Source of the DNA: Muribaculaceae bacterium | GTDB taxonomy: Bacteria > Bacillota > Clostridia > Lachnospirales > Lachnospiraceae | Assembly: GCA_023666425.1 (NCBI GenBank) | Contig: JAMPCA010000013.1 | Location: forward strand, 1-44,581 | Length of the DNA stretch: 44,581 nt | Direction of reading: 5' to 3' | Part shown: positions 5,450-36,892 of the stretch, one piece after another | How the letters are laid out: the number at the start of each line of letters is the position of its first letter | Numbering within the stretch: the stretch's first letter is position 1 | The notes under the pieces: generated by a model | Database searches by the model: none | What the model was told of the DNA's origin: nothing | Seen by the model: the letters and a program-made list of their open reading frames with translations, nothing else | Position numbers and translations under genes: made by a program

Positions 5450-6980
5450 AGTAGCAAACCTCGTATAGTAAGTGTGTAACTGTTAAAGTAATTATATCAG
5501 TATTCCACAGTTTCATTGATATTTTTGCTATATTTGCGGATTTCCAGCCATTGCCGTCGCAGATGGAGCAGTCTACAGTACCCTTGCCCTTGCAGCTGCT
5601 ACATTTTATCTTCCCTGCGCTGCAGCCGGTTCGGTTGCAGTTCACAATCCGTTGTTCCGCGTAAGAGTAATAGGTTCCTGTCCCGTTGCAGCTCGGGCAC
5701 ATCTTAAATCCGTCCGTACATTTTTTGCAGTCTACTTTTCCATTTCCGTTGCAGGCCGTGCAACGGGTTTTCTTGTCGGAGCTGCTGCTGCCCCCGCCCC
5801 CGGAGTTAGAGGATGATTCGTCCGAACCAGCGGTAGAGGAATCATAGCGCAGATTTTTTGCAACGTTCTTCTGCTTTAGGGATGTGGAATAAGTCAGGCT
5901 GACAGTTCCGCTATTTCCCCACGAGACACATAAATCGCATGTCGCATAGTTGATCAAAATGCTGTCTACAGAGCCCCGTTTGATGGATTTCGTTCCCGTA
6001 TAGTCAAAAAACTTATAGCCGTCGCTCCCATAAATGGATTGGAACGGATAATGCGAGGATTCTAAAAGCTTAATATAACCGTCGTACATGCTCCGTGTCA
6101 CGCCGCTGTATTTTACGACATTTGCCTTCACCCCGTAATCGCTTGTTTTTGTTGTCTTGGAATCCGGTGCGATTCCTGTATAGGACTCAAAGCTTGGCAG
6201 ATATACGGTGTTTGAGACGGAGTTTGCCTTTTTTGTTTTCAGTTTTATCCAAGTGCTTTTTTCACCCTTTGTGCCGGCACAGACGGGAATGAGTTTGTAA
6301 TAGTAGGCAGTTCCTGCCTTTACTGACGTATCATAATAAGTCATCCATTGTGTCTGAACGTTTGTGTAAGGATTCAACCAGTCCACATTCACGGTCGCGA
6401 TTTTTTTGTAGCCGCTGTTCTTTTTCGCCGAGCGGTAGACCAGATACTTCTCGGCTTCATAGTTGAGCTTCCATGTCAGGCGGCAGGATTTGACATATGC
6501 CTTGGAGTAAGTTTGTATCCACTCCGGTGCGGAAAGCTTTTTGTTAAATGTCAGCATGACCGGTTCGGAGAAGACGGTTACCGGATTGTAATAATCGTTA
6601 TCATTGACCGCCTTCAGGCGCACATAATAGGTTTTTCCCGGCTCTGTAAGATAGAATGAGAGGGTTTTAGTCTGTCCTGCGCTCCAGTAGTTTGTGTATC
6701 CCAATACTTCCTCATGCCAGGGGCCGTCCGGGCTGTTGGCGGATTCTATTTGAAGGGACTGGCCGGACTTGCGGTCCGTGTTATAGACAAAGTCACATTT
6801 GATATAGCTCCCCTCGGTATAAAAATTATAGGAATCTGGCAGAGCAGCGGCGGAGGCAGCGGCAACCTTCTCCGGGCCGAAGCCGCTTTCCATATTAAGC
6901 GCCGTCACACTCTGCATGGAAAAGAGCATTGCAAATACCAATAGAATGGAAATCATCTGCCTGCGTATTATCTTTTTCAT
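5427..6980 (-). CDS. secreted FN3-like protein with DnaJ-type CxxCxGxG zinc motifs
   Basis: A 517-aa exported protein of unknown function. It begins with a signal peptide (ISILLVFAMLFSMQSVTA). Residues about 45-255 look like two fibronectin-type-III-like beta domains (one strand reads AEKYLVYRSAKKNSGYKKI). A unique region and a Ser/Gly linker (about 390-405) follow, then repeated cysteine motifs like the DnaJ zinc-finger: CTACNGNGKVDC, CPSCNGTG, CSSCKGKGTVDC, CDGNG. An extracellular DnaJ-type zinc domain suggests zinc or protein binding. The ATG at 6980 follows GGAGG and lies 19 bases after the GH5 gene, so the two are probably in one operon. The last residues overlap the kinase start, so the true C-terminus could be affected by a late frameshift. 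Confidence 0.7.
   Translation of the reverse strand: MKKIIRRQMISILLVFAMLFSMQSVTALNMESGFGPEKVAAASAAALPDSYNFYTEGSYIKCDFVYNTDRKSGQSLQIESANSPDGPWHEEVLGYTNYWSAGQTKTLSFYLTEPGKTYYVRLKAVNDNDYYNPVTVFSEPVMLTFNKKLSAPEWIQTYSKAYVKSCRLTWKLNYEAEKYLVYRSAKKNSGYKKIATVNVDWLNPYTNVQTQWMTYYDTSVKAGTAYYYKLIPVCAGTKGEKSTWIKLKTKKANSVSNTVYLPSFESYTGIAPDSKTTKTSDYGVKANVVKYSGVTRSMYDGYIKLLESSHYPFQSIYGSDGYKFFDYTGTKSIKRGSVDSILINYATCDLCVSWGNSGTVSLTYSTSLKQKNVAKNLRYDSSTAGSDESSSNSGGGGSSSSDKKTRCTACNGNGKVDCKKCTDGFKMCPSCNGTGTYYSYAEQRIVNCNRTGCSAGKIKCSSCKGKGTVDCSICDGNGWKSANIAKISMKLWNTDIITLTVTHLLYEVCYYEPRAFR
5491..5499 (-). promoter_or_regulatory. extended -10 promoter for the kinase gene
   Basis: On the minus strand the sequence reads TGATATAAT, an extended -10 element with a consensus hexamer and no good -35. 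It lies 41 bases upstream of the kinase ATG, inside the 3' end of the preceding gene. Confidence 0.5.
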
Positions 6981-6999
6981 ATTTTGGCCTCCGTTGTGT

Positions 7000-11635: not shown

Positions 11636-11911
11636 GGAAATCATATTGCAGCTGGGAATGGCTGGGTGCGCAAAAGGTTCCATGCTATCGGTTACGTTAA
11701 ATGGATTTTCTAAATGTTCTGGGAAATACATATCCTTTGACGCGACCGCCCGCAATTCGCCGTCGTGGCTCAGTGCGGGCTTTACGGGACGTCCATGTCC
11801 CGCAATCGCTGATTTTGTACAGAACCTTAAGAAAATCCAATTTTCCTTCACAAAGATAGCGTTGGAAACCTTTTGCGCACCCAGCCATTCTCAGCTGCAA
11901 TATTGATTTCC
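11636..11911. mobile_element. MITE-like near-palindromic element with about 47-bp terminal inverted repeats
   Basis: The left arm (11636-11682) and right arm (11863-11911) are inverted copies with only a few differences; both contain AATGGCTGGGTGCGCAAAAG in the same relative place. Pairing continues inward with GCTATC (11684-11689) and GATAGC (11855-11860), and then an imperfect match around TGGATTTTCT. The whole 276 bases can fold into one long hairpin with smaller hairpins at the tip. It has no credible gene; the short frames inside are by-products of the palindrome. I see no clear target-site duplication. It fills most of the 450-base gap between the DUF4358 and MoxR genes. A miniature inverted-repeat transposable element is most likely; a large structured RNA is the alternative. 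Confidence 0.65.
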
Positions 11912-25979: not shown

Positions 25980-27044
25980 ATGACTAAAATAGTAGGAATA
26001 CGATTTCAGAGGGCGGGAAAGATTTATTATTTTGATCCGCTGGATTATGAGCTGGAGGTACCGATGCATGTCATCGTAGAGACCGCCCGGGGCATTGAGA
26101 TGGGAACCGTCCTGATCGCGCCGAAGGAGGTGGATGACACGCAGGTGGTGCAGCCCCTGAAACCCGTCATGCGCATTGCGACCGATGAGGACGAAAAGGT
26201 TATGGAGCGCAACCGCGAAAAGCAGAAGGAGGCCTTTGCCATCTGTAAGGAGAAGATCGCAAAGCACGGTCTGGAAATGAAGCTGGTCGCGGCAGAGTAT
26301 ACCTTTGACAACAATAAGTTGTTGTTCTATTTTACCGCAGACGGGAGGATTGACTTCCGGGAGCTGGTCAAGGATCTGGCTTCCGTATTCCGCACCCGCA
26401 TCGAGCTCCGGCAGATTGGCGTGAGAGACGAGACGAAGCTTTTAGGCGGGGTGGGAATCTGCGGCCGGGAGCTGTGCTGTAAATCCTATATGTCAGATTT
26501 TATCCCGGTGTCCATCAAGATGGCGAAGGAGCAGAATCTGTCCTTAAACCCCACAAAAATATCCGGTACCTGCGGGAGACTGATGTGCTGCCTGAAAAAC
26601 GAGCAGGAGACATACGAATACCTGAACAGCCGCCTTCCGTCCCTAAAGGATACCGTCATCACACCCAGCGGCATGAGGGGAGAAGTTTCCTCCGTGAATG
26701 TGCTGCGGCAGCTTGTGAAAGTGGTCGTGGACAACGGCGAGGAGAAGGAGCTTCAGGAATATCATGTGGACGAGCTGCGTTTTACGCCGCGCCGGCGCAA
26801 GGACGTAAAGCTAACGGAGGAGGAACTGAAAGAGTTTGAAGGCTTAGAGGATGCCGGAGGAGCGGCGGCGGAAGCGGCAGAGCAGGCAAACCGCCGGAAC
26901 TATGAGAACAAGAACCGCAAGGGCGGGGGAAACCGCCGGGACAATGACAGGCGCGGCCGGAACCGCCGGAATTACGAGAACAAAAACCGCAGCAATGGAG
27001 CAGAGCATGGAGAACAGAGCGGAAGTAACGATACACAGCCATGA
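25980..27044 (+). CDS. ricT: RicT/YaaT (PSP1 domain) regulatory protein
   Basis: A 354-aa PSP1-domain protein. In Bacillus RicT belongs to the RicA-RicF-RicT complex that works with RNase Y in mRNA processing and carries iron-sulfur clusters. The family cysteines are present: GGVGICGRELCCKSYMSDF and SGTCGRLMCCLKNEQ. The last 70 residues are an Arg/Asn-rich extension with a duplicated RRNYENKNR motif, much longer and more basic than usual and probably disordered; it may bind RNA. The ATG at 25980 is two bases after holB. The 3' end overlaps the yabB start by 38 bases in another frame. Confidence 0.9.
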   Translation: MTKIVGIRFQRAGKIYYFDPLDYELEVPMHVIVETARGIEMGTVLIAPKEVDDTQVVQPLKPVMRIATDEDEKVMERNREKQKEAFAICKEKIAKHGLEMKLVAAEYTFDNNKLLFYFTADGRIDFRELVKDLASVFRTRIELRQIGVRDETKLLGGVGICGRELCCKSYMSDFIPVSIKMAKEQNLSLNPTKISGTCGRLMCCLKNEQETYEYLNSRLPSLKDTVITPSGMRGEVSSVNVLRQLVKVVVDNGEEKELQEYHVDELRFTPRRRKDVKLTEEELKEFEGLEDAGGAAAEAAEQANRRNYENKNRKGGGNRRDNDRRGRNRRNYENKNRSNGAEHGEQSGSNDTQP

Positions 27045-27756
27045 ACGCATAGATGAGCTGCAGAGAAACGGCTATTCCATCATTCAGGATCCCAAACGCT
27101 TCTGTTTTGGCATGGATGCGGTGCTGTTGTCGGGGTTTGCCAGGGTAAAGCAGGGAGAAAAAGTGTTAGACCTCGGTACCGGTACGGGAATTATCCCGAT
27201 CCTTCTGGAGGCAAAATCGCAGGGAGAGCACTTTACCGGGCTGGAGATCCAGCCGGAGAGCGCGGATATGGCGGCCCGCAGTGTGGCCTACAATCATTTG
27301 CAGGATAAAATCGAGATAGTGAACGGAGATATCAGGGAGGCTTCAAAGCTTTTTGGAGCCTCTTCTTTTGACGTAATCACGACCAATCCCCCTTACATGA
27401 TCGGGCAGCACGGCCTCGTCTCCGACGCGGACGCAAAAGCAGTCGCCCGGCATGAACTGTTATGCGATCTGGGAGATATCCTAAGAGAGAGCGCGCGAAT
27501 CCTGCCGCCGGGCGGGCGCTTTTATATGGTGCACAGACCCTTCCGACTGGCGGAAATTTTCAGCAAAATGACAGCCTCCCACATAGAACCGAAGCGGATG
27601 CGGCTCGTCTATCCCTTCGTGGATAAAGAACCGAATATGGTGCTGATCGAGGGGCTCCGGGGAGGCAGATCCCGGCTTACCGTGGAAAAGCCTCTGATCG
27701 TCTACCAGTCGCCAGGGGTCTATACAGACGAGATCTATGAGATATACGGATACTAA
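27007..27756 (+). CDS. yabB: tRNA1(Val) (adenine-37-N6)-methyltransferase-like protein
   Basis: A 249-aa SAM-dependent N6-adenine methyltransferase of the TrmN6/YabB group. GEKVLDLGTGTGIIPILLE is motif I, FTGLEIQPESADMAARSV motif II, and DVITTNPPYMIG the NPPY catalytic motif. RFCFGMDAVLLSGFARV is the typical N-terminal segment. The ATG at 27007 has a GGAG site six bases upstream; one at 26995 is also in frame, and the frame is open to 26851 only because of the ricT overlap. It closes the yaaO-gmk-yaaR-holB-ricT-yabB operon. In many relatives rsmI follows; here it is missing and an XRE/helicase pair comes next. Confidence 0.92.
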   Translation: MENRAEVTIHSHERIDELQRNGYSIIQDPKRFCFGMDAVLLSGFARVKQGEKVLDLGTGTGIIPILLEAKSQGEHFTGLEIQPESADMAARSVAYNHLQDKIEIVNGDIREASKLFGASSFDVITTNPPYMIGQHGLVSDADAKAVARHELLCDLGDILRESARILPPGGRFYMVHRPFRLAEIFSKMTASHIEPKRMRLVYPFVDKEPNMVLIEGLRGGRSRLTVEKPLIVYQSPGVYTDEIYEIYGY

Positions 27757-28112
27757 GAGACAGAATCATTCCTTTGTGGGGAAAGGGATGATTCTTTTTT
27801 ATTGTTCTGACGGATAAAAATTTGTCCCTGCATAATATAGAATTCCTTTTGTTCAGGATTCAGGGAGCGGAAAATGTGTAAAAGCAGCTCCTCATTGTGT
27901 GTCAGGCCGCTCTTCGTCGTGTGGCTGAGCAAATAGTCTGTGGACAGATTGAAATAGTCGGCAATCTGGCGCAGCGTCTGGTAGTCCGGCTCCCGTGTGT
28001 TGTGGATATAATTGCCAAGAGCCGAGGGCGTGACGCCGAGAATCTGCGCAAAGTCCTTCTGCGTTATTTCATGTTTTTCTAAAAGTTCCCCTAATACATC
28101 TCCAAATTTCAT
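27753..28112 (-). CDS. XRE-family transcriptional regulator
   Basis: A 119-aa repressor-type protein. Residues 5-62 form a classic XRE helix-turn-helix: LLEKHEITQKDFAQILGVTP, then SALGNYIHNTREPDYQTLRQ and FNLSTDYLL. The C-terminal part is helical and polar (LNPEQKEFYIMQGQIFIRQN). The ATG at 28112 has GAGGAG six bases upstream. It diverges from the helicase gene; the shared region contains repeated GTTTAA/GTTAAA words in opposite orientation that may be its operator. Its TAG stop overlaps the yabB stop region tail to tail, and the operon terminator lies within it. Confidence 0.85.
   Translation of the reverse strand: MKFGDVLGELLEKHEITQKDFAQILGVTPSALGNYIHNTREPDYQTLRQIADYFNLSTDYLLSHTTKSGLTHNEELLLHIFRSLNPEQKEFYIMQGQIFIRQNNKKESSLSPQRNDSVS
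27762..27800 (+). terminator. rho-independent terminator of the yaaO-yabB operon
   Basis: A 14-base stem (AGAATCATTCCTTT, 27762-27775; AAAGGGATGATTCT, 27782-27795) with a six-base loop is followed by TTTTT. It lies inside the 3' end of the convergent XRE gene, so the same DNA encodes that protein's last residues. Confidence 0.9.
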
Positions 28113-28155
28113 ATGTACTCCTCACAGTCTGTATGTACTACTATTTATACGCATA

Positions 28156-28182
28156 GTTAAATTTTTAAACCCTTAGTTTAAC
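28156..28182. promoter_or_regulatory. candidate XRE operator: inverted GTTAAA/GTTTAA words
   Basis: GTTAAA (28156-28161), TTTAAAC (28164-28170) and GTTTAAC (28176-28182) form overlapping inverted repeats between the divergent XRE and helicase genes. XRE regulators commonly bind such sites at their own promoter. Only the repeats are seen; binding is inference. Confidence 0.4.
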
Positions 28183-28240
28183 CATTCCCTTATTATTAGC
28201 GCACAGCAGGTCATCTTCAAAATGAAATACACGAAACGAA

Positions 28241-28269
28241 TTGACAATGAACAAATCGTGTATTACAAT
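28241..28269 (+). promoter_or_regulatory. promoter of the helicase gene
   Basis: TTGACA (28241-28246), a 17-base spacer and TACAAT (28264-28269). Its position excludes the ATG at 28222 and supports the ATG at 28309. Confidence 0.75.
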
Positions 28270-28308
28270 GGGAAAGAACCAAAGAACAGCCACGAGGAAG
28301 AGGGACGG

Positions 28309-30162
28309 ATGATAAAGTTATTTCCACATAATCAGACGGCCTATGAGGCCGCAGAAGAATATCTGCAGAGCTTCGGCAGGGCAGCGGTTGTGCATCCGAC
28401 CGGAACCGGGAAGAGCTACATCGCGTTCAAGCTCTGTGAGGATCACAGAGAAAGCAGGATCTGCTGGCTGTCCCCATCTGAATATATTTTTAGAACACAG
28501 CTGGAAAATATACATACAGATTTCGATTTTGTGCCGGAAAACATAGTATTTTACACCTACGCTGCTCTTATGCGCATGGAGGAGACACAGCTTTCTGATA
28601 TCATGCCGGACTACATCATTCTGGACGAATTCCACCGCTGCGGGGCACAGCAGTGGGGACTTGGCGTGCAGAGGCTGCTCGCCTGCTTTCCGGACTGTCC
28701 GGTTCTTGGATTATCCGCAACCAATATCCGTTACCTTGACAACCACCGGGATATGGCGGAGGAGCTTTTCAACGGCAGGATTGCCAGCCGGATGACACTC
28801 GGAGAGGCAATCGTGCTCGGTGTGCTCAAAGCCCCGGTATATGTGACGGCGCTGTTCCGTTATCAGGAGACTTATGAAAAATATGTGAGGAGAGTCAGGA
28901 CGATCCGCAGCAAAAAGACGAGAGATCAGGCGGAGCTGCTGCTGGAACAGCTGAAGCGAACGCTGGAAAACGCGGAGGGGATCGACCGGATTTTTGAGCG
29001 GCACATGAAGGAGCGTCACGGAAAATATCTCGTATTTTGCGCGAACAAAGAGCACATGGACGCGATGCGGGAGCTTGTAGCAAAGTGGTTTCATGGGATT
29101 GACGACGCGCCGCACGTCTACCGGGTGTATTCAAAGGATCCGGAGACGAGCAGGGAGTTTCAGCGATTCAAAGCAGATCAGGCGGATCATCTGCGGCTTT
29201 TATTCTGTATTGATATGCTCAACGAGGGCATCCATGTAGAGGATATCGCGGGCGTGATCCTGCTTCGCCCCACGGTTTCGCCGGTGGTATATAAGCAGCA
29301 GATCGGCAGGGCAATGTCTGTGGCGTCAGAAAACGCAGTGATTTTTGATATTGTGGACAATATCTCCGGGCTTACAAGCATTGATTTCATACAGGAGGAG
29401 ATGGCGGAGATTTTAGAGATATACCGGCTCCGGGGAGAGGAAGCGCGGATTGTCAGTGAGCGGTTTACGGTCATCGACGAGGTGCAGGAGTGCAGGCGGC
29501 TGTTTGACGAGCTGGAACATACCATGTCCGCATCCTGGGAGCAGATGTACGAGGAGGCGCGGAAGTATTACATGGCAAACGGGGATCTGCTTCCCCCGCA
29601 GAGCTATGTGACCCCGGAGGGATACCGGCTGGGGCAGTGGGTCATGGCGCAGAGAAGCGCTTACCACAGCGCAAGAGCAGAGCAGCAGCTGACCGGAGAG
29701 CAGATTCAAAAGCTGGAGGCGGCCGGCATGTGCTGGGATACATACAGAGAGCGCCAGTGGGAAGAGCAGCTTGCGCGGGCGCGCGCATTTTATGAGAAAA
29801 ACGGCCATCTGGACATTCCGGCGGGCTATGTGGACAAGGAGAGCGGCTATCCGCTGGGACGCTGGTACCGCGGCGTCCGGGATGCAAAGCGGCGCGGAAC
29901 CTTGTCCGCAGAGAGGCAGAGACAGCTGGAATCCATCGGGATCCAGTGGGATTCAGTCAAGGAGCGCAACTGGCTGGGCTATTACAGGCTGGCAGAAGAC
30001 TACTATAGGGAAAACGGGAATCTGGAGGTGCATCTGAAATATCAGACAGCTTCCGGCGTCCGGCTCGGCGTCTGGATCTCAGGCCAGAGGGACAGTTACA
30101 AAAAGGGCAGGCTCACGCAGGAGCAGATTTCCATGCTGGAGGACATCGGCATGAGCTGGTAG
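28309..30162 (+). CDS. DEFH-box superfamily 2 helicase with helicase-associated repeats, ended by an in-frame amber codon
   Basis: A 617-aa product (start at 28309 after GAGGAAGAGGGA). Motif I is HPTGTGKSY (residues 31-36), motif II LDEFH (106-109), motif III SAT (136-138) and motif VI QQIGRAM (Gly333-Arg334), all of an SF2 DNA/RNA helicase or translocase of the restriction-type group. From about residue 410 come helicase-associated (HA) repeats of about 65-70 residues, each starting with Trp, with LGxW in the middle and LExxGMxW at the end. Three repeats are complete before the TAG at 30160-30162; the same frame continues for three more to 30780. It is divergent from an XRE gene, a layout seen in defence or regulatory cassettes. 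The cellular role is unknown. Confidence 0.82.
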   Translation: MIKLFPHNQTAYEAAEEYLQSFGRAAVVHPTGTGKSYIAFKLCEDHRESRICWLSPSEYIFRTQLENIHTDFDFVPENIVFYTYAALMRMEETQLSDIMPDYIILDEFHRCGAQQWGLGVQRLLACFPDCPVLGLSATNIRYLDNHRDMAEELFNGRIASRMTLGEAIVLGVLKAPVYVTALFRYQETYEKYVRRVRTIRSKKTRDQAELLLEQLKRTLENAEGIDRIFERHMKERHGKYLVFCANKEHMDAMRELVAKWFHGIDDAPHVYRVYSKDPETSREFQRFKADQADHLRLLFCIDMLNEGIHVEDIAGVILLRPTVSPVVYKQQIGRAMSVASENAVIFDIVDNISGLTSIDFIQEEMAEILEIYRLRGEEARIVSERFTVIDEVQECRRLFDELEHTMSASWEQMYEEARKYYMANGDLLPPQSYVTPEGYRLGQWVMAQRSAYHSARAEQQLTGEQIQKLEAAGMCWDTYRERQWEEQLARARAFYEKNGHLDIPAGYVDKESGYPLGRWYRGVRDAKRRGTLSAERQRQLESIGIQWDSVKERNWLGYYRLAEDYYRENGNLEVHLKYQTASGVRLGVWISGQRDSYKKGRLTQEQISMLEDIGMSW

Positions 30163-30780
30163 CAGTTCAAGGCCAAGTGGTACGCCTGCTTTAATGAGGC
30201 GGTGCAGCAGTATGAGGAATACGAAACCATCAACGTTCCGGCGGATTATGTCTGCGGGGACGGCTTCCGTCTCGGGGCATGGATTGCCACCCAGAGGAAC
30301 AAATACCGTCAGGGAAAGCTGAACAAAAAGCAGATAGAGGCGCTGGAGGCGCTGGAGATCGTATGGGAGCCGGGCAGCAGCTTCTGGGAGGAATGCTTTC
30401 AGGAGGCGGAAATGTACTACAGGGCGCATGGGAATCTGATGGCGCCCGCAGATTATGTCACAAAAAGCGGCGTAAAGCTGGGCGCATGGATCAATAACTT
30501 AAGAAGCCGCTATAAAAAAGGTGAGCTTAAAGAAGAACAGATCAGCCGCTTAGAGGCCGTCGGTATGGTGTGGAGCAGCAACGAGGCGAAATGGAACGCA
30601 GGCTTTGAGCGTCTGCAGGAGTATCAAAAGACCCACGGGGATGCAAAAGTTCCGCAGGCCTATGCCTGCGTGGACGGATACAAGCTGGGAAGCTGGCTGA
30701 GCACGCAGCGGAGAGTTGCGAAGAAGGGCAGGCTTGACCCGGTGAAGCTGCATAGTCTGGAGGAGATAGGGGTTCTGTAA
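30163..30780 (+). pseudogene. C-terminal three HA repeats of the helicase, downstream of the amber codon
   Basis: The frame of the helicase continues without interruption after the TAG. It encodes three further HA repeats: beginning WYACFNEAVQQYEEYETINV, WEECFQEAEMYYRAHGNLMA and WNAGFERLQEYQKTHGDAKV. In the other repeats the residue after the closing Trp is Asp, Glu or Ser, so the amber most simply replaced a Glu codon (GAG to TAG). Internal starts such as the GTG at 30202 have no good ribosome site, so separate translation is doubtful. Reading-frame preservation points to a recent mutation, readthrough or a sequencing error. Confidence 0.7.
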
Positions 30781-30785
30781 AGAGG

Positions 30786-31451
30786 ATGAGAGAACAGCAG
30801 GGATATGAACTCAATAGAAGACAGAGAAGCTATCTGCCGGTAAAAAGGCTGCTGGATATTGGAATCTGTATTCCGGTATGCGTGATTCTGGCGCCGTTCA
30901 TGTTAGTGTGCGCCGTTGCAGTCAAGCTGGATACGCCGGGGCCGGTTCTTTTTAAACAGAAGCGGATAGGAAAGGACAGAACTTATTTTTATATATGGAA
31001 ATTTCGCACAATGCGGGTAGATGCACCAAAAAATGTTCCCACGCACTTATTAGCAAATCCGGAAACATACATAACCAGAACGGGGCGTTTCATGCGTCTG
31101 CATTCCATTGACGAGCTGCCGCAGATTTACCAGTGCCTGTTTACGGATTCCTTATCCCTCGTGGGTCCAAGACCCGCACTCTGGAATCAGGAGGATCTTG
31201 TGGAGGAGAGGGAAAAATATGGTGCAAACAGCGTAAAGCCGGGAATTACCGGCTGGGCGCAGATTAATGGCAGGGACGAGCTGGAAATTCCGGTTAAAGC
31301 AAGACTGGACGGAGAATACATCAGGCATTTTGGATTTGCCATGGACGTAAGATGCTTTTTCGGTACGTTTATACATATCCTTCGGAGTGATGGCGTGGTG
31401 GAAGGCGGCACGGGCGGGATAAAGAGAGAGGCAAGAGATACAAGGCAGTGA
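30786..31451 (+). CDS. priming sugar-phosphate transferase (bacterial sugar transferase family)
   Basis: A 221-aa membrane-bound phosphoglycosyltransferase that starts polysaccharide synthesis by placing a sugar-1-phosphate on undecaprenyl phosphate. KRLLDIGICIPVCVILAPFM is the N-terminal membrane helix. VKLDTPGPVLFKQKRIGKD, FYIWKFRTMRVDAPKN and RLHSIDELPQIYQCLFTDSL (Asp-Glu catalytic pair) with SLVGPRPAL are the family signatures. The length matches the short PglC-like form rather than the long WbaP form. It begins five bases after the helicase tail, with AGAGG nearby, so no separate promoter is visible. Its stop overlaps the epimerase start (GTGATG). Confidence 0.92.
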   Translation: MREQQGYELNRRQRSYLPVKRLLDIGICIPVCVILAPFMLVCAVAVKLDTPGPVLFKQKRIGKDRTYFYIWKFRTMRVDAPKNVPTHLLANPETYITRTGRFMRLHSIDELPQIYQCLFTDSLSLVGPRPALWNQEDLVEEREKYGANSVKPGITGWAQINGRDELEIPVKARLDGEYIRHFGFAMDVRCFFGTFIHILRSDGVVEGGTGGIKREARDTRQ

Positions 31452-32341
31452 TGAAAAGGATATTGATTACGGGAGCCAATTCCTATATTGGAATATCAGT
31501 AGAGAGTTGGCTAAAAGCAGAGAATATCAAGCAAGGTGAAGAATTTTATTTTGTCAATACTCTGGATATGTATGGAGAAAGCTGGAAACAATATGATTTC
31601 TCCGGTTATGATGTGGTGTTTCATGTGGCAGGACTTGCCCATGCAGATACGGGGCATGTAACAGAAGAGAAAAAAGAATTTTATTACAAGATTAACACAG
31701 ATCTGGTGGTAAAAACCGCAGAAAAGGCAAAAACAGAAGGTGTAAAACAGTTTATTTTTATGTCCTCGATGATTATTTATGGCGGTTGCAAAGCGCGTGT
31801 AATTACGCAGAAAACGAGTCCAAGACCTGCGAATTTTTACGGGGAGAGCAAATGGAAGGCAGATGTTCAGATTCAGGGACTTGCAGATAAAAATTTTAGG
31901 GTTGTGATTCTTCGTCCGCCTATGATTTACGGAAAAGGGAGCAAGGGCAATTATCCACGACTTGCGAAACTGGCAACGAAAACGCCCCTTTTTCCAAAAG
32001 TACACAACCAGCGTTCCATGCTGTATATAGATAATCTCTGCCAGTTTGTAAAGCTTGTGATTGATAATGAAGAATCCGGCGTATTTTTTCCTCAAAATGG
32101 CGAATATACCAATACCTCAGAGCTTGTGCGATTAATTGCGTTGGCAAGAGGACATAGGGTTTGGCTGTTGCCGGGGTTGGAGTGGCTGATTAAGATGCTG
32201 ATGTTGATACCGGGAAAATACGGAGCTATGGCGGGAAAGATTTTTGGAGATTCCATTTATGAGATGGAGATGAGCGAATATAAGCAGAATTATAGGGTGT
32301 GTGATTTCAAGTCTTCTATTAAAGCGACAGAAGAGATATGA
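31451..32341 (+). CDS. NAD-dependent epimerase/dehydratase (SDR family)
   Basis: A 296-aa extended short-chain dehydrogenase acting on a nucleotide sugar. ILITGANSYIGISVESWL is the Rossmann GxxGxxG-type nucleotide loop, SSMIIYGG the catalytic-serine strand, and YGESKWKAD holds the active-site YxxxK. RPPMIYGKGSKGNYPRL is typical of UDP-glucose 4-epimerase-like members. The ATG at 31451 overlaps the preceding stop; a GTG at 31448 is possible. Directly behind the priming transferase, it probably makes or modifies the first sugar (4-epimerase or 4-keto reductase); the exact reaction cannot be told. Confidence 0.85.
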   Translation: MKRILITGANSYIGISVESWLKAENIKQGEEFYFVNTLDMYGESWKQYDFSGYDVVFHVAGLAHADTGHVTEEKKEFYYKINTDLVVKTAEKAKTEGVKQFIFMSSMIIYGGCKARVITQKTSPRPANFYGESKWKADVQIQGLADKNFRVVILRPPMIYGKGSKGNYPRLAKLATKTPLFPKVHNQRSMLYIDNLCQFVKLVIDNEESGVFFPQNGEYTNTSELVRLIALARGHRVWLLPGLEWLIKMLMLIPGKYGAMAGKIFGDSIYEMEMSEYKQNYRVCDFKSSIKATEEI

Positions 32342-32409
32342 AAAATGGAAAATGAAGTTTCTGTTTCACAATTTTTTGTAGAAAAGTTTTTCAAAAGGAG
32401 AAGTGACCG

Positions 32410-33546
32410 GTGAAAAGGGCTTTGATGCACGCCTCTGTTGCATCCATGATCTATCAATTTAATATGGATAATATTGATTTGCTTCAATTGTTAGGCTATC
32501 AGGTAGATGTAGCTTGCAATTTTGGAAAGGCTAACCCGATTAGTGGAAAGCAGATAGAAGATTTCAGGGAAAAACTGTCAGACAAAAATGTGAACATCAT
32601 AGAAACAGAGTGCTTAAGAGATGTTTTTGCCGTTGGAAAAATGATTCGGGGATATCGCCAGTTAAAACGACTGTCCGGAAAGAGAAAATATAACCTGGTA
32701 CACACCCAGTCGCCCATAGGAGGCGCCGTCTGCCGACTGGCATTTCGGTCAGCCAGAAAGCGTGGGACAAAAGTGATTTACACAGCCCATGGCTTCCATT
32801 TCTATGAAGGCGCGCCGAAGAAGAACTGGCTTGTATATTATCCGGTGGAAAAATGGCTGTCCCGCTGGACGGATGTGCTGATTACAATCAATAAAGAAGA
32901 TTATGGAAGAGCAAAATCTAAGTTTCGTGCAAAGGAAACGGTATACATACCGGGGGTGGGGATTGATACAGAAAAATTTGCCGTACAGTCTCCTATAAAA
33001 AATGAAAAAAGGAAGGAGCTTGGAATTCCCAAAGATAAGGTTTGGCTTTTATCTGTGGGAGAACTGACGCAGAGAAAGAACCATGAAACATTGATACGGG
33101 CAGTAGCTGATATAGATAATATGTTCCTTACGATCGCAGGACAAGGGAAGCGGAGAGAGGATCTGGAAAACCTAATAGATAAACTGGAAATTAGAGATAA
33201 AGTTAGTCTTATCGGATTTCGTGCAGACATTCTGGAACTGTGTAAGGAAGCAGATATGTTTGTATTTCCTTCGTACCAGGAGGGACTTCCGGTCGCTCTT
33301 ATGGAGGCGATGGCAAGCGGTCTTCCCTGTGTGGTAAGCAGGATCCGGGGAAATATAGATTTAATTGACGAGGAAAAGGGGGGATACATGTTTGACCCTG
33401 CTAAAAAAGAAGAATTGAGAGCAGCACTGATAAATATGAGCAATGAAGACTGGAAGCTGTTCGGAGATTATAATAGGAAAAAAATAGAGCACTTTTCATT
33501 GTATACAGTAAAACAACAAATGAAGGAAATATACAAAGAAATGTAG
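32410..33546 (+). CDS. glycosyltransferase family 4
   Basis: A 378-aa GT-B fold enzyme. The N-terminal acceptor domain contains HTQSPIGGAVCRLAF and YTAHGFHFYEGAPKKN, as in EpsD/CapM-type transferases. The C-terminal donor domain has SVGELTQRKNHETLI and FVFPSYQEGLPVALMEAMAS (the E-x7-E type motif). It probably adds the second sugar to the lipid-linked primer. The start is a GTG at 32410 after AAAAGGAG. It is the last gene before the toxin-antitoxin pair, with a 140-base gap in between. Confidence 0.9.
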   Translation: MKRALMHASVASMIYQFNMDNIDLLQLLGYQVDVACNFGKANPISGKQIEDFREKLSDKNVNIIETECLRDVFAVGKMIRGYRQLKRLSGKRKYNLVHTQSPIGGAVCRLAFRSARKRGTKVIYTAHGFHFYEGAPKKNWLVYYPVEKWLSRWTDVLITINKEDYGRAKSKFRAKETVYIPGVGIDTEKFAVQSPIKNEKRKELGIPKDKVWLLSVGELTQRKNHETLIRAVADIDNMFLTIAGQGKRREDLENLIDKLEIRDKVSLIGFRADILELCKEADMFVFPSYQEGLPVALMEAMASGLPCVVSRIRGNIDLIDEEKGGYMFDPAKKEELRAALINMSNEDWKLFGDYNRKKIEHFSLYTVKQQMKEIYKEM

Positions 33547-33627
33547 GTAAGCATTTAAGATTATTCAGAATACACGCTGTTGTAGATAAATAAGAACCTT
33601 GACAATTACATATCTTATATTGAGAGC

Positions 33628-33656
33628 TTGAATTTTGCCATTGCGCATGTTATGAT
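33628..33656 (+). promoter_or_regulatory. promoter of the toxin-antitoxin pair
   Basis: TTGAAT (33628-33633), a 17-base spacer and TATGAT (33651-33656), ending 30 bases before the antitoxin ATG. Confidence 0.6.
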
Positions 33657-33686
33657 GATTTAAATTAAGACGAAGGGTAGCGCGGT

Positions 33687-34172
33687 ATGGAAAAAATTGT
33701 TGATGTTGCACAGTATATTTATACGGAGTATAAAAGAATTACGGGTGAAATCATTGATGAGATGAAGCTGCATAAGCTCCTATACTTTGCCCAGAGAGAG
33801 GCACTTGCTATTATGAATGTGCCTTTGTTTGAGGAAGAATTCGAGGGCTGGAAATATGGCCCTGTCTGCAAAGAACTTCGCGGGTCGATTACTGTAGATG
33901 GTATACTTGATTCCTCTGGAAATATTTCGGAAGAGAGCAAGTATATTGTGAACAATGTTATTCAGCAGTACGGCTCTTTGGCTTCGTGGAAGCTGAGTGA
34001 ATTGTCCCACAAAGAGATTTCATGGAGAAATGCAAGGATTGGTCTGGAAAGCGAGGAAATTGGCAGGACAAAGCTTAAGCTGGAAGATATCCGTGAAGAT
34101 GCAAAGAAAATACGCCCGTATGATTATATTTGGGACATGTATTACGATGAGTTTGAAGATGCAGAGGTATAG
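33687..34172 (+). CDS. Panacea-domain (DUF4065/SocA-like) antitoxin
   Basis: A 161-aa protein with the Panacea (DUF4065, SocA-like) fold, an antitoxin domain known to pair with many unrelated toxins. Diagnostic segments are DEMKLHKLLYFAQREALAI, LFEEEFEGWKYGPVCKEL and YGSLASWKLSELSHKE. The ATG at 33687 follows GAAGGGTAGCG (GAAGGG-type site). The stop is two bases before the PemK-like toxin gene, so antitoxin is made first. Its own promoter (33628-33656) and a strong terminator after the toxin (34582-34627) make the pair a compact unit inside the polysaccharide locus. Confidence 0.85.
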   Translation: MEKIVDVAQYIYTEYKRITGEIIDEMKLHKLLYFAQREALAIMNVPLFEEEFEGWKYGPVCKELRGSITVDGILDSSGNISEESKYIVNNVIQQYGSLASWKLSELSHKEISWRNARIGLESEEIGRTKLKLEDIREDAKKIRPYDYIWDMYYDEFEDAEV

Positions 34173-34174
34173 GT

Positions 34175-34546
34175 ATGATTGGAAAAATATACTCATCCGT
34201 CGTTCCTTACTACAATCGAGACAAAAATGTTAATGCGTTTAAGAAAAGGCCAGTATTGATAATCGCCGGACCCAGAAATAATGATTATACGGTATTACCT
34301 ATATCAACTGTAAGCATTCGAGCCAACCTCGATGCAGAGTATGATATAGAGATTGAACCGGAAAAGTATCCAGAGCTTGGTTTAAAGAAGATCTGTTATG
34401 TGCGCGTACATAAGCAAACAACGGTTCACCAGGCTTCTCTCACCACTGTGATTGGGGACATGAAAAAGGATTATGGGGAATTGTATTTACGGATTCTTAG
34501 GAAGCTTGAAGAATATAATAAGCGAATCATAGACGAAGCGTTATAA
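34175..34546 (+). CDS. PemK/MazF-like toxin
   Basis: A 123-aa protein of the PemK/MazF type, expected to be an mRNA-cleaving endoribonuclease. The beta-barrel core is visible: IYSSVVPYYNRDKNVNAFKK, RPVLIIAGPRNNDYTVLPIS and YVRVHKQTTVHQASLTTVIG. The Arg in KKRPVLII and the Ser/Thr in LPISTVS lie where MazF active-site residues are expected. The length fits (MazF about 110). It starts two bases after the Panacea antitoxin. MazF partnered with Panacea rather than MazE is a known but uncommon combination. Confidence 0.8.
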   Translation: MIGKIYSSVVPYYNRDKNVNAFKKRPVLIIAGPRNNDYTVLPISTVSIRANLDAEYDIEIEPEKYPELGLKKICYVRVHKQTTVHQASLTTVIGDMKKDYGELYLRILRKLEEYNKRIIDEAL

Positions 34547-34581
34547 CTGTTAAAAATTGAATTGAAGTTTTTATGTAAATG

Positions 34582-34627
34582 AACTCTCAGTATAAGATAT
34601 GTAATTGTCTTATACTGGGAGTTTTTT
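34582..34627 (+). terminator. rho-independent terminator/leader hairpin abutting the loaP start codon
   Basis: A 16-bp stem (34582-34597 with 34608-34623, one G-T pair) and a ten-base loop are followed by TTTTTT (34622-34627). The ATG of the NusG-like gene is the next codon (34628). The only ribosome-site-like sequence before that ATG, GGGAG (34618-34621 region), is inside the 3' arm of the stem. The hairpin can thus end the toxin-antitoxin transcript and also hide the loaP ribosome site. Confidence 0.85.
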
Positions 34628-35326
34628 ATGGGAGAAACAGTAAGTGAAAAGAGTATTGATGCACTGGGACGGCATAGGTATTGTGTCCTGCACATACGGG
34701 ACGCAGACCAGGACAAATTGAAGGATATCATCGAAAAGCACATCCCGTCGGGGCGTGGCGGGGCATTCATCCCCCGGATGGAACTATATAGACGCGGGGA
34801 AAAGACGGTAAAAGAGGTGCCAATGTTCCCGGGGTATGTGTTCATCCATACGGATCTGGACATGAAAGAGATCCATGGGATGCTGACAAGTTGCCGCACA
34901 GAGCTGAATGCAGCGTTCCGGGAGCTGGCATTGAAAGAGTGGCAGATGGCCGACCCGGATTTTCTGTATAAAGAAGGCGGAGAATTATGCAGTCTTTCAG
35001 ATCTGGACGATGAGGAGACAGAATTTCTGGATCTGCTCTGGCAGGGGGGCGGGTTGCTCGCGATGTCCTGCGGGTATGAGGAAAACAAGCATTACCATGT
35101 GGTGGAAGGGCCGCTGAAGGCGTATGAGGATAAGATATGGAAGGTGGACAAACATAACAGAAAGGCATTTTTGAGGTTTGAGATCAACGGGAGGCAGGCG
35201 AGGGCGGGATTTGAATGCAGACCCAGGGCGCACTGGTACCCGGAGGAAGATACAAAGATCGCTACATTATCAGATGGGACAGAGGTGGATTTAGAGGAAT
35301 TGAAAAAGAAAGTAATGGCAATATGA
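34628..35326 (+). CDS. loaP: LoaP-like NusG-family antiterminator
   Basis: A 232-aa specialised NusG paralog. The N-terminal NGN domain is RYCVLHIRDADQDKLKDIIE with FIPRMELYRRGEKTVKEVPM and FPGYVFIHTDLDM. A linker follows, then a KOW-type C-terminal domain (VVEGPLKAYEDKIWKVDKHN, RKAFLRFEINGRQARAGFE). In Firmicutes such LoaP proteins bind RNA leaders and let polymerase pass terminators in long biosynthetic operons. Here it stands in the middle of a polysaccharide locus, upstream of the Wzy-like and further glycosyltransferase genes. The start directly follows a terminator hairpin; no alternative start is convincing. No separate promoter is apparent, so expression probably needs readthrough from upstream. 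Confidence 0.88.
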   Translation: MGETVSEKSIDALGRHRYCVLHIRDADQDKLKDIIEKHIPSGRGGAFIPRMELYRRGEKTVKEVPMFPGYVFIHTDLDMKEIHGMLTSCRTELNAAFRELALKEWQMADPDFLYKEGGELCSLSDLDDEETEFLDLLWQGGGLLAMSCGYEENKHYHVVEGPLKAYEDKIWKVDKHNRKAFLRFEINGRQARAGFECRPRAHWYPEEDTKIATLSDGTEVDLEELKKKVMAI

Positions 35327-35392
35327 GGATGGAGGCAGTGTCGGTCTGAGTCGCTCTGCCAACCGGAATCGGATCATAGAGGAAAGGAAGCT

Positions 35393-35421
35393 CCCGGGGC
35401 ATGAGGAATCATGGCTGCGGG
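35393..35421 (+). other. candidate RNA hairpin in the loaP-downstream leader
   Basis: The 280-base stretch between loaP and the Wzy-like gene holds no credible gene, only short broken frames. CCCG (35393-35396) and CGGG (35418-35421) enclose CATGA (35400-35404) and TCATG (35409-35413), which can fold into an interrupted hairpin with a GGAA loop. LoaP proteins act on RNA hairpins in operon leaders, so this is a candidate target; the fold is weak evidence. Confidence 0.3.
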
Positions 35422-35608
35422 AATGGCGAAGCACGCCCTGAAATACATGGTTTGGTGTGCAGGATCAGATCTTTCTTAAAATGGTTGGAGAGAACGACAT
35501 TAGAAGGATGATTTATGACGGACAATTATGGACTGAGTGAAAAACAGAAAAATGTGCCTACTGGTGAAAAGAGAGGCTATGGAAGTAAAAGCTGTGGGAA
35601 GTAAATAC

Positions 35609-36892
35609 ATGGGAAAGAATACAAGGGTTTTCTGGGGAGTTTACTTGTGTCTGCTCTGCCTGGGGGGAATTCTGTTCACCCATATGGGAACAACAGATGC
35701 AGTGCCGGACCTGGTATCAGCATTTATCGTGGCAGTGGGAACGATGGCTGCATTTACATGGATCCTAAAGAACGAACCAGATGGAGCGGCGGCCGCTGTT
35801 ATGCTTTTGGGCTATGCTGTACGGCTGGCATACCGTTATGGAGCAGATTCCGGAAAATTCACGCTGGCATTTACATCGGCGCCAAGCGACGCAGTCCACT
35901 TTTGGACAGCATCCTCCAACCTATACTGGGGGATTCCCGATGAAATTATCCTCACAAAGTATCCGTATCTATTGAGATGGTTTTATGAAATGTTTGGAAA
36001 CAACCGTTTCGCGGCGGAATATGTGAATATATTATGCTGGGTGTTAGGCACAGTCATTTTACTCAGGCTGGGCAGGCGCGCAGGATTGTCAGGATCCAAA
36101 AAATATATTTTGTATGGGATATGGGTCATCCTGCCAAGTAGCATCCTGATCGGCACGGATCTGCTGAGGGAGAACATAATGCTCTTTTTTGACATGTGGT
36201 CATTTTACATATTCCTCGGATGGATGAAAAGCGGCAGAAAAAGCCAACTGGCAGGGGCATTCCTGCTTGTAGCACCGGCAGCGTATCTGCATACCGCGTC
36301 CATCGTATTATGGGCGGTCTATGTCGCAATTGCGGCATTTTGGAATGTTAAAAGTCAAAAGTACAGATTTCAGTGGAAGACGATCCAGCTGATCTTTGCA
36401 GGGGTGCTGGGTGGATGGCTTATTCTGTTTTCCCCGCTGAGAAGTGTCTTTGGAGATTACCTGGGGGATCTGTCTTTATATGGCATCACGCATAGAGCAT
36501 ATGAGGTGGGCGGATCCGATTATTTGCAGTGGATGGACTGTCAGAACTTGCTGCAGTTCGTGCCGTACACGCTTTTGCGGATGGCCTGGTTCCTATTCTC
36601 CCCGGTGCCGTTCGAGGCAAGGGGAGCTGTTGACATTTTGTCATTTGCCACAGACGGTCTGCCGGTATTCTGCCTGCTGGCATATATGGTGTATCAACTG
36701 AGAGACAAGGATAAAAGGGGAAGTATTTGTGCCGCGCTTGTATGTGTTCTGGCGTTTTCCGGGATATTTGCGTGGGGAGTGCGGAATGCAGGGACGGCGA
36801 TCCGGCACAGGATGCTTGTGTGGGGGATACTCATAATGGGGAGCTGCATAGCGTTAGGAAAGCCAGAGACAATAGGCAAAAGACAGAATTGA
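35609..36892 (+). CDS. multi-pass membrane protein, probable polysaccharide polymerase (Wzy-like)
   Basis: A 427-aa integral membrane protein with about nine to ten hydrophobic helices (WGVYLCLLCLGGILF, YVNILCWVLGTVILL, YILYGIWVILPSSILIG, GAFLLVAPAAYLHTASIVLW, LIFAGVLGGWLILF and others). A polar loop (FTSAPSDAVHFWTASSNLYW) and conserved-looking LRENIMLFF and HTAS resemble Wzy/EpsG-type polymerases, but sequence alone does not separate these from lipid-linked sugar transferases. No other polymerase is present in the part of the locus seen. The frame is open from a GTG at 35537; the ATG at 35609 follows GGGAAG and begins just before the first helix. Confidence 0.6.
   Translation: MGKNTRVFWGVYLCLLCLGGILFTHMGTTDAVPDLVSAFIVAVGTMAAFTWILKNEPDGAAAAVMLLGYAVRLAYRYGADSGKFTLAFTSAPSDAVHFWTASSNLYWGIPDEIILTKYPYLLRWFYEMFGNNRFAAEYVNILCWVLGTVILLRLGRRAGLSGSKKYILYGIWVILPSSILIGTDLLRENIMLFFDMWSFYIFLGWMKSGRKSQLAGAFLLVAPAAYLHTASIVLWAVYVAIAAFWNVKSQKYRFQWKTIQLIFAGVLGGWLILFSPLRSVFGDYLGDLSLYGITHRAYEVGGSDYLQWMDCQNLLQFVPYTLLRMAWFLFSPVPFEARGAVDILSFATDGLPVFCLLAYMVYQLRDKDKRGSICAALVCVLAFSGIFAWGVRNAGTAIRHRMLVWGILIMGSCIALGKPETIGKRQN

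Follow-up and report, generated by a model that had tools for sequence, protein, structure and literature searches.

The leaders of trp-type, T-box and riboswitch systems form mutually exclusive antiterminator and terminator helices, and integron gene cassettes and dif/Xer modules carry toxin-antitoxin genes. In Tn916, a terminator (T1) and a probable cis RNA antiterminator (canT) manage transcription in the host chromosome (PMC11658703). LoaP of B. velezensis promotes the passage of intrinsic terminators by way of a UNCG-loop hairpin (PMC12691694), and Panacea antitoxins are the subject of a further paper (PMC8832971). A study of rpn genes reports variable ends and no identifiable inverted terminal repeats, and deems nucleases of the PDDEXK_2/Transposase_31 type unlikely to be transposases (PMC10327210). 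Here we describe a hairpin that lies ahead of a loaP-like gene in a stretch of 44,581 nucleotides, analysed as a whole and referred to below as the window, together with the family of gene cassettes to which the hairpin belongs. Judging from sequence comparison, we put at about 0.56 the probability that the ends of these cassettes act as a split attenuator inside the host operon.

The hairpin ahead of loaP

A preliminary description of this DNA had placed a terminator hairpin directly ahead of loaP, with the ribosome site buried in its stem and its U-tract ending at the loaP ATG, and our analysis bears out this anatomy. The whole stem occupies 34582-34623 of the plus strand and consists of a 5' arm (AACTCTCAGTATAAGA, 34582-34597; defined by sequence, fold and repeat scan), a loop of 10 nt (UAUGUAAUUG, 34598-34607) that is similar in many relatives, and a 3' arm (TCTTATACTGGGAGTT, 34608-34623; defined by sequence and fold), the two arms forming what we call the RIGHT end. 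A Shine-Dalgarno-like GGGAG (34617-34621, plus strand) lies within the 3' arm, 6 nt 5' of the ATG, and is buried in the stem. The U-tract consists of six T (34622-34627, plus strand), and the loaP ATG at 34628 abuts it. Since no ATG, GTG or TTG in the loaP frame occurs between the in-frame stop at 34580 and position 34628, the latter is the first usual start of loaP. The segment 34560-34660 folds at -32 kcal/mol, compared with -14.2 (sd 2.7) in 200 dinucleotide shuffles, none of which equalled it (z -6.6). With a stem of this stability directly followed by a T6 tract, the hairpin has the make-up of an intrinsic terminator; 34582-34627 was absent from the output of a simple terminator scan. No known RNA family was recognised by Rfam 15, which returned three matches in 33400-34900, all under their gathering scores (best E 2.4).

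The gene behind the hairpin (34628-35326, plus strand) encodes a loaP-like NusG paralogue, which has the NusG domain itself (PF02357) and scores 84.7 bits with the NCBIfam LoaP model, whose cut-off is 125. The preliminary description had also raised the possibility of a positive-feedback switch, in which LoaP is needed to pass the terminator and so promotes its own expression and that of the operon behind. The position of loaP directly behind a terminator would suit such a switch, as would the activity described for the B. velezensis protein (PMC12691694). Against it stand the LoaP score below cut-off, the occurrence of the same type of hairpin before genes unrelated to loaP (see below), and the count of UNCG-loop hairpins on the plus strand of 27001-36000, which was 0 (shuffled mean 0.08; uninterrupted stems of at least 6 pairs with at least 3 G-C). 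A terminator controlled by LoaP would be expected to have such a hairpin upstream on the same transcript, and the loop found here is UAUGUAAUUG. The proposed feedback thus finds no support and we regard it as quite improbable; LoaP could still add to readthrough. We also rejected the view that the hairpin is a leader conserved with loaP: relatives have only a few weak loaP homologues (6 of 98 genomes, with the window's own included), and of 62 genus genomes its own alone matched the hairpin DNA.

The cassette in the window

On its right-hand side, a small cassette of toxin-antitoxin genes (about 33594-34627) ends in the hairpin ahead of loaP. Because ends of the same type surround other cargo at two more sites in the genome, the hairpin is to be seen as closing a cassette and not as a leader specific to loaP. 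The left end of the cassette, LEFT (GAACCTTGACAATTACATATCTTATATTGAGAG, 33594-33626, plus strand), which is recognised by its inverted match and its conservation and is our proposed antiterminator strand, holds a conserved GNACNTTGAYAATTNCATAYYTTAYRT, with conservation starting at the G. A repeat scan returned two inverted repeats with a common arm, namely the hairpin and a second pair, 33601-33626 with 34584-34609, which are inverted copies of each other at 25/26 positions (96%, 957 nt apart). The terminator 5' arm therefore has a complementary strand upstream, as in an attenuator, and the loop is complementary to LEFT as well; the conservation of the loop would be explained by the left copy being a possible cis-acting opener of the stem.

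Just 3' of LEFT lies a promoter-like TTGAAT-17-TATGAT with TG (33628-33656, plus strand), recognised by consensus match alone, and transcripts from this candidate promoter would be without LEFT. Between the ends are cargo gene 1 (33687-34172), for an antitoxin with a SocA/Panacea domain (PF13274, E 1.6e-17), and cargo gene 2 (34175-34546), for a PemK/MazF-like toxin (PF02452, E 1.3e-6), both on the plus strand. A Panacea-domain gene adjoining a toxin gene is the PanAT arrangement, and the two are a predicted toxin-antitoxin pair. PADLOC models applied to 8 proteins gave just weak partial matches, for 2 of them. A glycosyltransferase gene of the host operon (32410-33546, plus strand) lies upstream and is co-directional. 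At a distance from the cassette and separate from it, 11689-11853 of the minus strand matches the TwoAYGGAY RNA (RF01731, 107 bits), a candidate cis-regulatory RNA, and adjacent open reading frames at 28222-30162 and 30202-30780 have similar repeated segments and, by eye, are possibly one split helicase-associated gene.

On contig C22 of the same genome, the entire hairpin recurs as a 99% copy, together with the left piece. These ends enclose different cargo and are flanked by genes for an acetyltransferase-like protein (by eye) and a glycosyltransferase. We take this cargo, by eye, to be a VbhA-like antitoxin and a decayed Fic-type toxin; Pfam returned nothing for either piece. A third cassette of this genome, about 3 kb upstream on C22, contains a DUF4160/DUF2442 pair and has its hairpin immediately ahead of a gene for a DegT aminotransferase. 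Over its first 36 nt, loaP agrees at 33 positions (by eye) with the flank to the right of the C22 cassette that has the window's ends, a sequence there preceding the glycosyltransferase gene, and the first 12 loaP codons (34628-34664) fall within the stretch common to that flank. The LoaP-like protein of the window has 16 residues before RYCVL; of eight loaP homologues read, five start some 5-9 residues ahead of the corresponding position, and the predicted starts of the other three are longer. From these comparisons, the start of loaP is probably a fusion made at the edge of the cassette, which would explain why its ATG abuts the U-tract. A purine-rich 3' arm and a T-run also stand directly 5' of an ATG in the third cassette of the genome, in L104 and in L109, and the end of the cassette may provide a ribosome site that becomes accessible only after the left strand has opened the stem.

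Cassettes with similar ends in related bacteria

An exact 19-mer scan of genome contigs gave two further cassettes, L015 and L016. Among 397 genomes drawn from the window's family, 18 had matches to our LEFT pattern (30 in all, with 0 for the reversed control), and an order-wide draw of 325 genomes gave 19 matches in 13, compared with 4 for the control. A looser left-end pattern, with matches in 45 of the 397 genomes, was left out of these counts since its control matched many too. A right hairpin was present downstream on the same contig for 18 of the 30 family matches, and 3 were themselves right hairpins read from the other strand. Among the 9 without a hairpin, the contig ends within 413 nt in L107 and L121 and within 1709 nt in L101; L100, L108 and the second match of L106 are hairpinless within the stretch searched, and the matches of L021, L056 and L068 resemble chance. 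Six of the 19 order-wide matches were already known, and six of the 13 new ones were examined, of which four gave cassettes and two (L119, L120) were without a hairpin. For the hairpins in L118, L111 and L112 no clear LEFT was found.

These searches establish a family of 24 cassettes, made up of the 18 from the family scan, L016, the second cassette in L098 and the four order-wide ones, the T-run having been part of the hairpin search. Removal of the C22 copy with the window's ends, L115, L117 and the second of L105 left 20 non-redundant cassettes. LEFT and RIGHT are separated by 0.2-1.75 kb. Cargo of toxin, antitoxin or nuclease type was recognised by Pfam above cut-offs in 9 of the 20 (Panacea/PemK, BrnT, RelB/YoeB, DUF4160/DUF2442, PDDEXK_2, Transposase_31, and AAA_35 in three, two of them with PDDEXK_3), and the remaining 11 had no confident family in what was scanned, or short open reading frames alone. 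The cargo of L016, L121 and G399 appears Rpn-like by eye alone; Pfam found no Rpn family for L016, and the PDDEXK_2 score of L121 was under the cut-off. The G399 contigs (L107, L108 and L112) have related ends near contig ends and a longer right-hairpin loop, with no tidy LEFT/RIGHT pair per contig. Two cassettes or left ends follow in close succession within one operon in L105, L098 and L106.

Genes found behind the hairpins include those for a glycosyltransferase, a DegT aminotransferase, a UDP-sugar dehydrogenase, NeuB and a SIS-domain protein, as well as loaP. When 18 downstream genes were scanned, 13 belonged to families that we regarded as typical of operons for polysaccharides or surface polymers (glycosyltransferases, DegT, UDP-sugar dehydrogenase, cytidylyltransferase-like, LicD, NeuB, GDPD, SIS, epimerase and ABC2 membrane), and 5 fell outside this set (DUF4422, radical SAM/SPASM, zinc ribbon and two without a family). 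Such neighbours suggest that the cassettes occupy operons of related bacteria, often surface-sugar operons, and that the flanking genes form one operon. The nearest open reading frame of at least 100 aa outside the cassette was co-directional upstream in 23/23 and downstream in 23/23 judged among the 24, a count in which shorter reverse frames and those overlapping the cassette (L113, L098) were set aside, some neighbours are cargo of a second cassette, and L122 upstream (only an 80-aa reverse frame) and L016 downstream (none) went unjudged. For a terminator, facing the flow of an operon is the less favourable orientation unless transcription can get past it, and we therefore count the co-directional ends for an RNA-level reading. 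In L104 the PDDEXK_2 (Rpn-type) cargo gene is reversed (6079-6990), while the ends keep the direction of the operon.

For the 20 cassettes, the duplex of LEFT with the 5' arm and loop had a mean of -31.7 kcal/mol with its own partner, -23.9 with those of other cassettes and -9.5 when LEFT was shuffled. The ends are thus matched within a cassette on average (permutation p 5e-5, 20,000 permutations); the single best partner of LEFT was the hairpin of the same cassette in only 5/20, and that of the hairpin was the same cassette's LEFT in 9/20. The LEFT duplex was stronger than the hairpin's own energy in 18/20, loop closure not being charged. An ordinary terminator of a toxin-antitoxin operon, with LEFT as a decayed or accidental inverted copy, would be unremarkable after a toxin gene, and some left and right ends are indeed without a recognisable partner. 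We nevertheless hold this explanation to be quite unlikely, given that complementarity is kept in 20 different cassettes and is greater for cognate than for non-cognate pairs on average, and that the terminator of L104 faces operon flow despite its reversed cargo.

The way in which the two ends differ also bears on their function. A DNA repeat is expected to yield G.U and A.C differences about equally, and in the 19 fixed columns we counted 328 Watson-Crick pairs, 36 G.U, 8 A.C and 8 other. This lean to G.U comes from differences in only 12 columns, against 4 for A.C, in related sequences, and the pattern used to find hairpins allowed A-to-G changes, a bias toward G.U. Non-cognate pairs lean to G.U too (0.69, compared with 0.82 for cognate pairs), so that part of the excess reflects the shared consensus. 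Where the two pairings disagree, it is that with LEFT which is retained: positions paired with LEFT and not within the hairpin number 80, compared with 11 for the reverse, loop positions included. A LEFT:RIGHT stem of some 20-30 bp on the operon strand would also be a suitable substrate for a double-strand RNase, which would cut the stem and so remove the cargo from the mRNA, and processing stems of rRNA offer an analogue. Processing alone leaves unexplained the right-copy hairpin and T-run in the 24 cassettes (the T-run being part of the search), and we consider it very improbable.

Full-length transcripts were folded by minimum free energy only. With LEFT present, the 5' arm paired with LEFT in 13/20, compared with 25/80 for swapped LEFTs, and without LEFT it paired downstream in 18/20. 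The terminator was kept despite LEFT in 7/20 full-length folds and equilibrium folding alone therefore does not settle the question. The best promoter-like score after LEFT averaged 9.6, compared with 8.4 in mononucleotide-shuffled sequence, and exceeded its own shuffled mean in 17/20 (being below it in L104, L118 and L122); LEFT's own TTTACA can be read as a -35 with 17-nt spacing in 7/20 cassettes. With promoter-like sites at or after LEFT, cassette transcripts would be without the left strand, and we infer that these sites work.

In the 20 cassettes, the constant part of the left end starts at a G five bases 5' of TTGA, and the sequence upstream is little conserved. At the tip of the left end is GNAC (33594-33597 in the window), whose G, A and C are present in 20/20 at bases outside the search pattern, and which is kept in 5/7 further left ends. 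Since GNAC is constant and yet is unpaired with the hairpin in most cassettes, it may have a role at the DNA or protein level. On the other side, the U-tract was taken as the right boundary of the element from a comparison in G399, where two related right ends are alike up to the T-run and their flanks diverge after it; two left ends differ 5' of ACCTTGAC. We infer that the cassettes are or were mobile. The two genes flanking the G306/G514 cassette are directly adjacent in G768 (the GlpQ-like protein being 60% identical), so that this cassette sits between genes that adjoin elsewhere; a search for a near-identical empty site found none, G768 being the sole, distant one. A phage origin was rejected on two exact pattern scans of viral contigs, which gave 0 matches.

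The main rival of the split attenuator is a mobile element acting at the DNA level, with LEFT and RIGHT as terminal inverted repeats for a recombinase or transposase whose gene lies elsewhere, the hairpin simply as a terminator of the cargo and RNA pairing as a by-product. The cassettes do have terminal inverted repeats (LEFT against the 5' half of RIGHT), as insertion sequences and MITEs have, and common ends with exchanged cargo, several copies per genome, the constant and mostly unpaired GNAC, and the related ends at different sites in G399, which suggest both boundaries, all fit such an element. However, the flanks of the 24 cassettes gave no sign of the target-site duplication of insertion sequences and MITEs (longest common word 3.5 on average, compared with 3.8 for non-cognate flanks, in a test that covered the flanks only), and the cargo proteins scanned contained no DDE or tyrosine/serine recombinase family, the only transposase-type names being PDDEXK_2 and Transposase_31. 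The agreement in orientation with neighbours in every cassette judged, and mismatches that lean to G.U over A.C, also go against the DNA-level element, which we view as unlikely while still deserving serious consideration.

The proposed split attenuator and its relation to known systems

In the split attenuator, three RNA segments would compete, which in the window are segment 1 (LEFT, 33601-33626), segment 2 (5' arm and loop, 34584-34609) and segment 3 (3' arm, 34608-34623). A transcript from the cassette's own promoter would start at or just after LEFT and lack segment 1, so that 2:3 would form and transcription would stop after the toxin gene. A transcript of the host operon would carry segment 1, so that 1:2 would form first and segment 3 and the U-tract could not fold together; RNA polymerase would then continue into the next host gene, here loaP, and the GGGAG in segment 3 would be freed together with readthrough. 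Given the 0.2-1.75 kb between LEFT and RIGHT, 1:2 would have to form in time; that this pairing prevents termination in the cell is the reading we draw from the complementarity of the ends. The outcome would be a cassette that keeps its own transcripts insulated without being polar on the host operon.

If this is right, a cassette could insert into any operon without polarity, which would account for the presence of toxin-antitoxin and nuclease genes within long operons for polysaccharides, and the origin of a transcript would be read through base pairing that spans entire genes, an uncommon role for attenuation. We see an even chance that the cassettes represent a new class of selfish or defensive cassette, in which the right-end terminator stops only cassette-born transcripts because only host-operon transcripts carry the dismantling left strand. 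A search of open-licence PMC papers brought up no description of such cassettes. The ends also provide a sequence signature for finding them, and candidate ends for some Rpn-type genes.

Several described systems resemble the cassettes in part. Exchangeable cargo between conserved sites with folded or inverted ends is shared with integron and dif/Xer modules, but LEFT forms no strong hairpin (by eye), RIGHT is a terminator, and insertion is between the genes of other operons. Genes for Rpn (YhgA-like, recombination-promoting nuclease) proteins are likewise represented, in that 2/20 cargos score with PDDEXK_2 or Transposase_31 and others are Rpn-like by eye, and Rpn genes are toxin-antitoxin-like and move horizontally (PMC10327210), as the cassettes may; unlike in that report, Rpn-type cargo here lies between conserved complementary ends. 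LoaP antitermination similarly involves a NusG paralogue and intrinsic terminators in long operons, whereas it uses a UNCG-loop hairpin, and the available sections of PMC12691694 mention no complementary distant strand. Tn916 offers termination and a likely cis RNA antiterminator in a mobile element, but its T1, as described in PMC11658703, keeps host transcription out and canT is processive, whereas the cassette terminator would stop transcripts of the element and let those of the host pass by base pairing. As in attenuators, cassette segments 1:2 would compete with 2:3, with a U-tract behind 2:3. Unlike in attenuators, segment 1 lies 0.2-1.75 kb upstream, beyond entire genes that have their own promoter-like site, and the proposed signal would be the place where the transcript starts, with no ligand.
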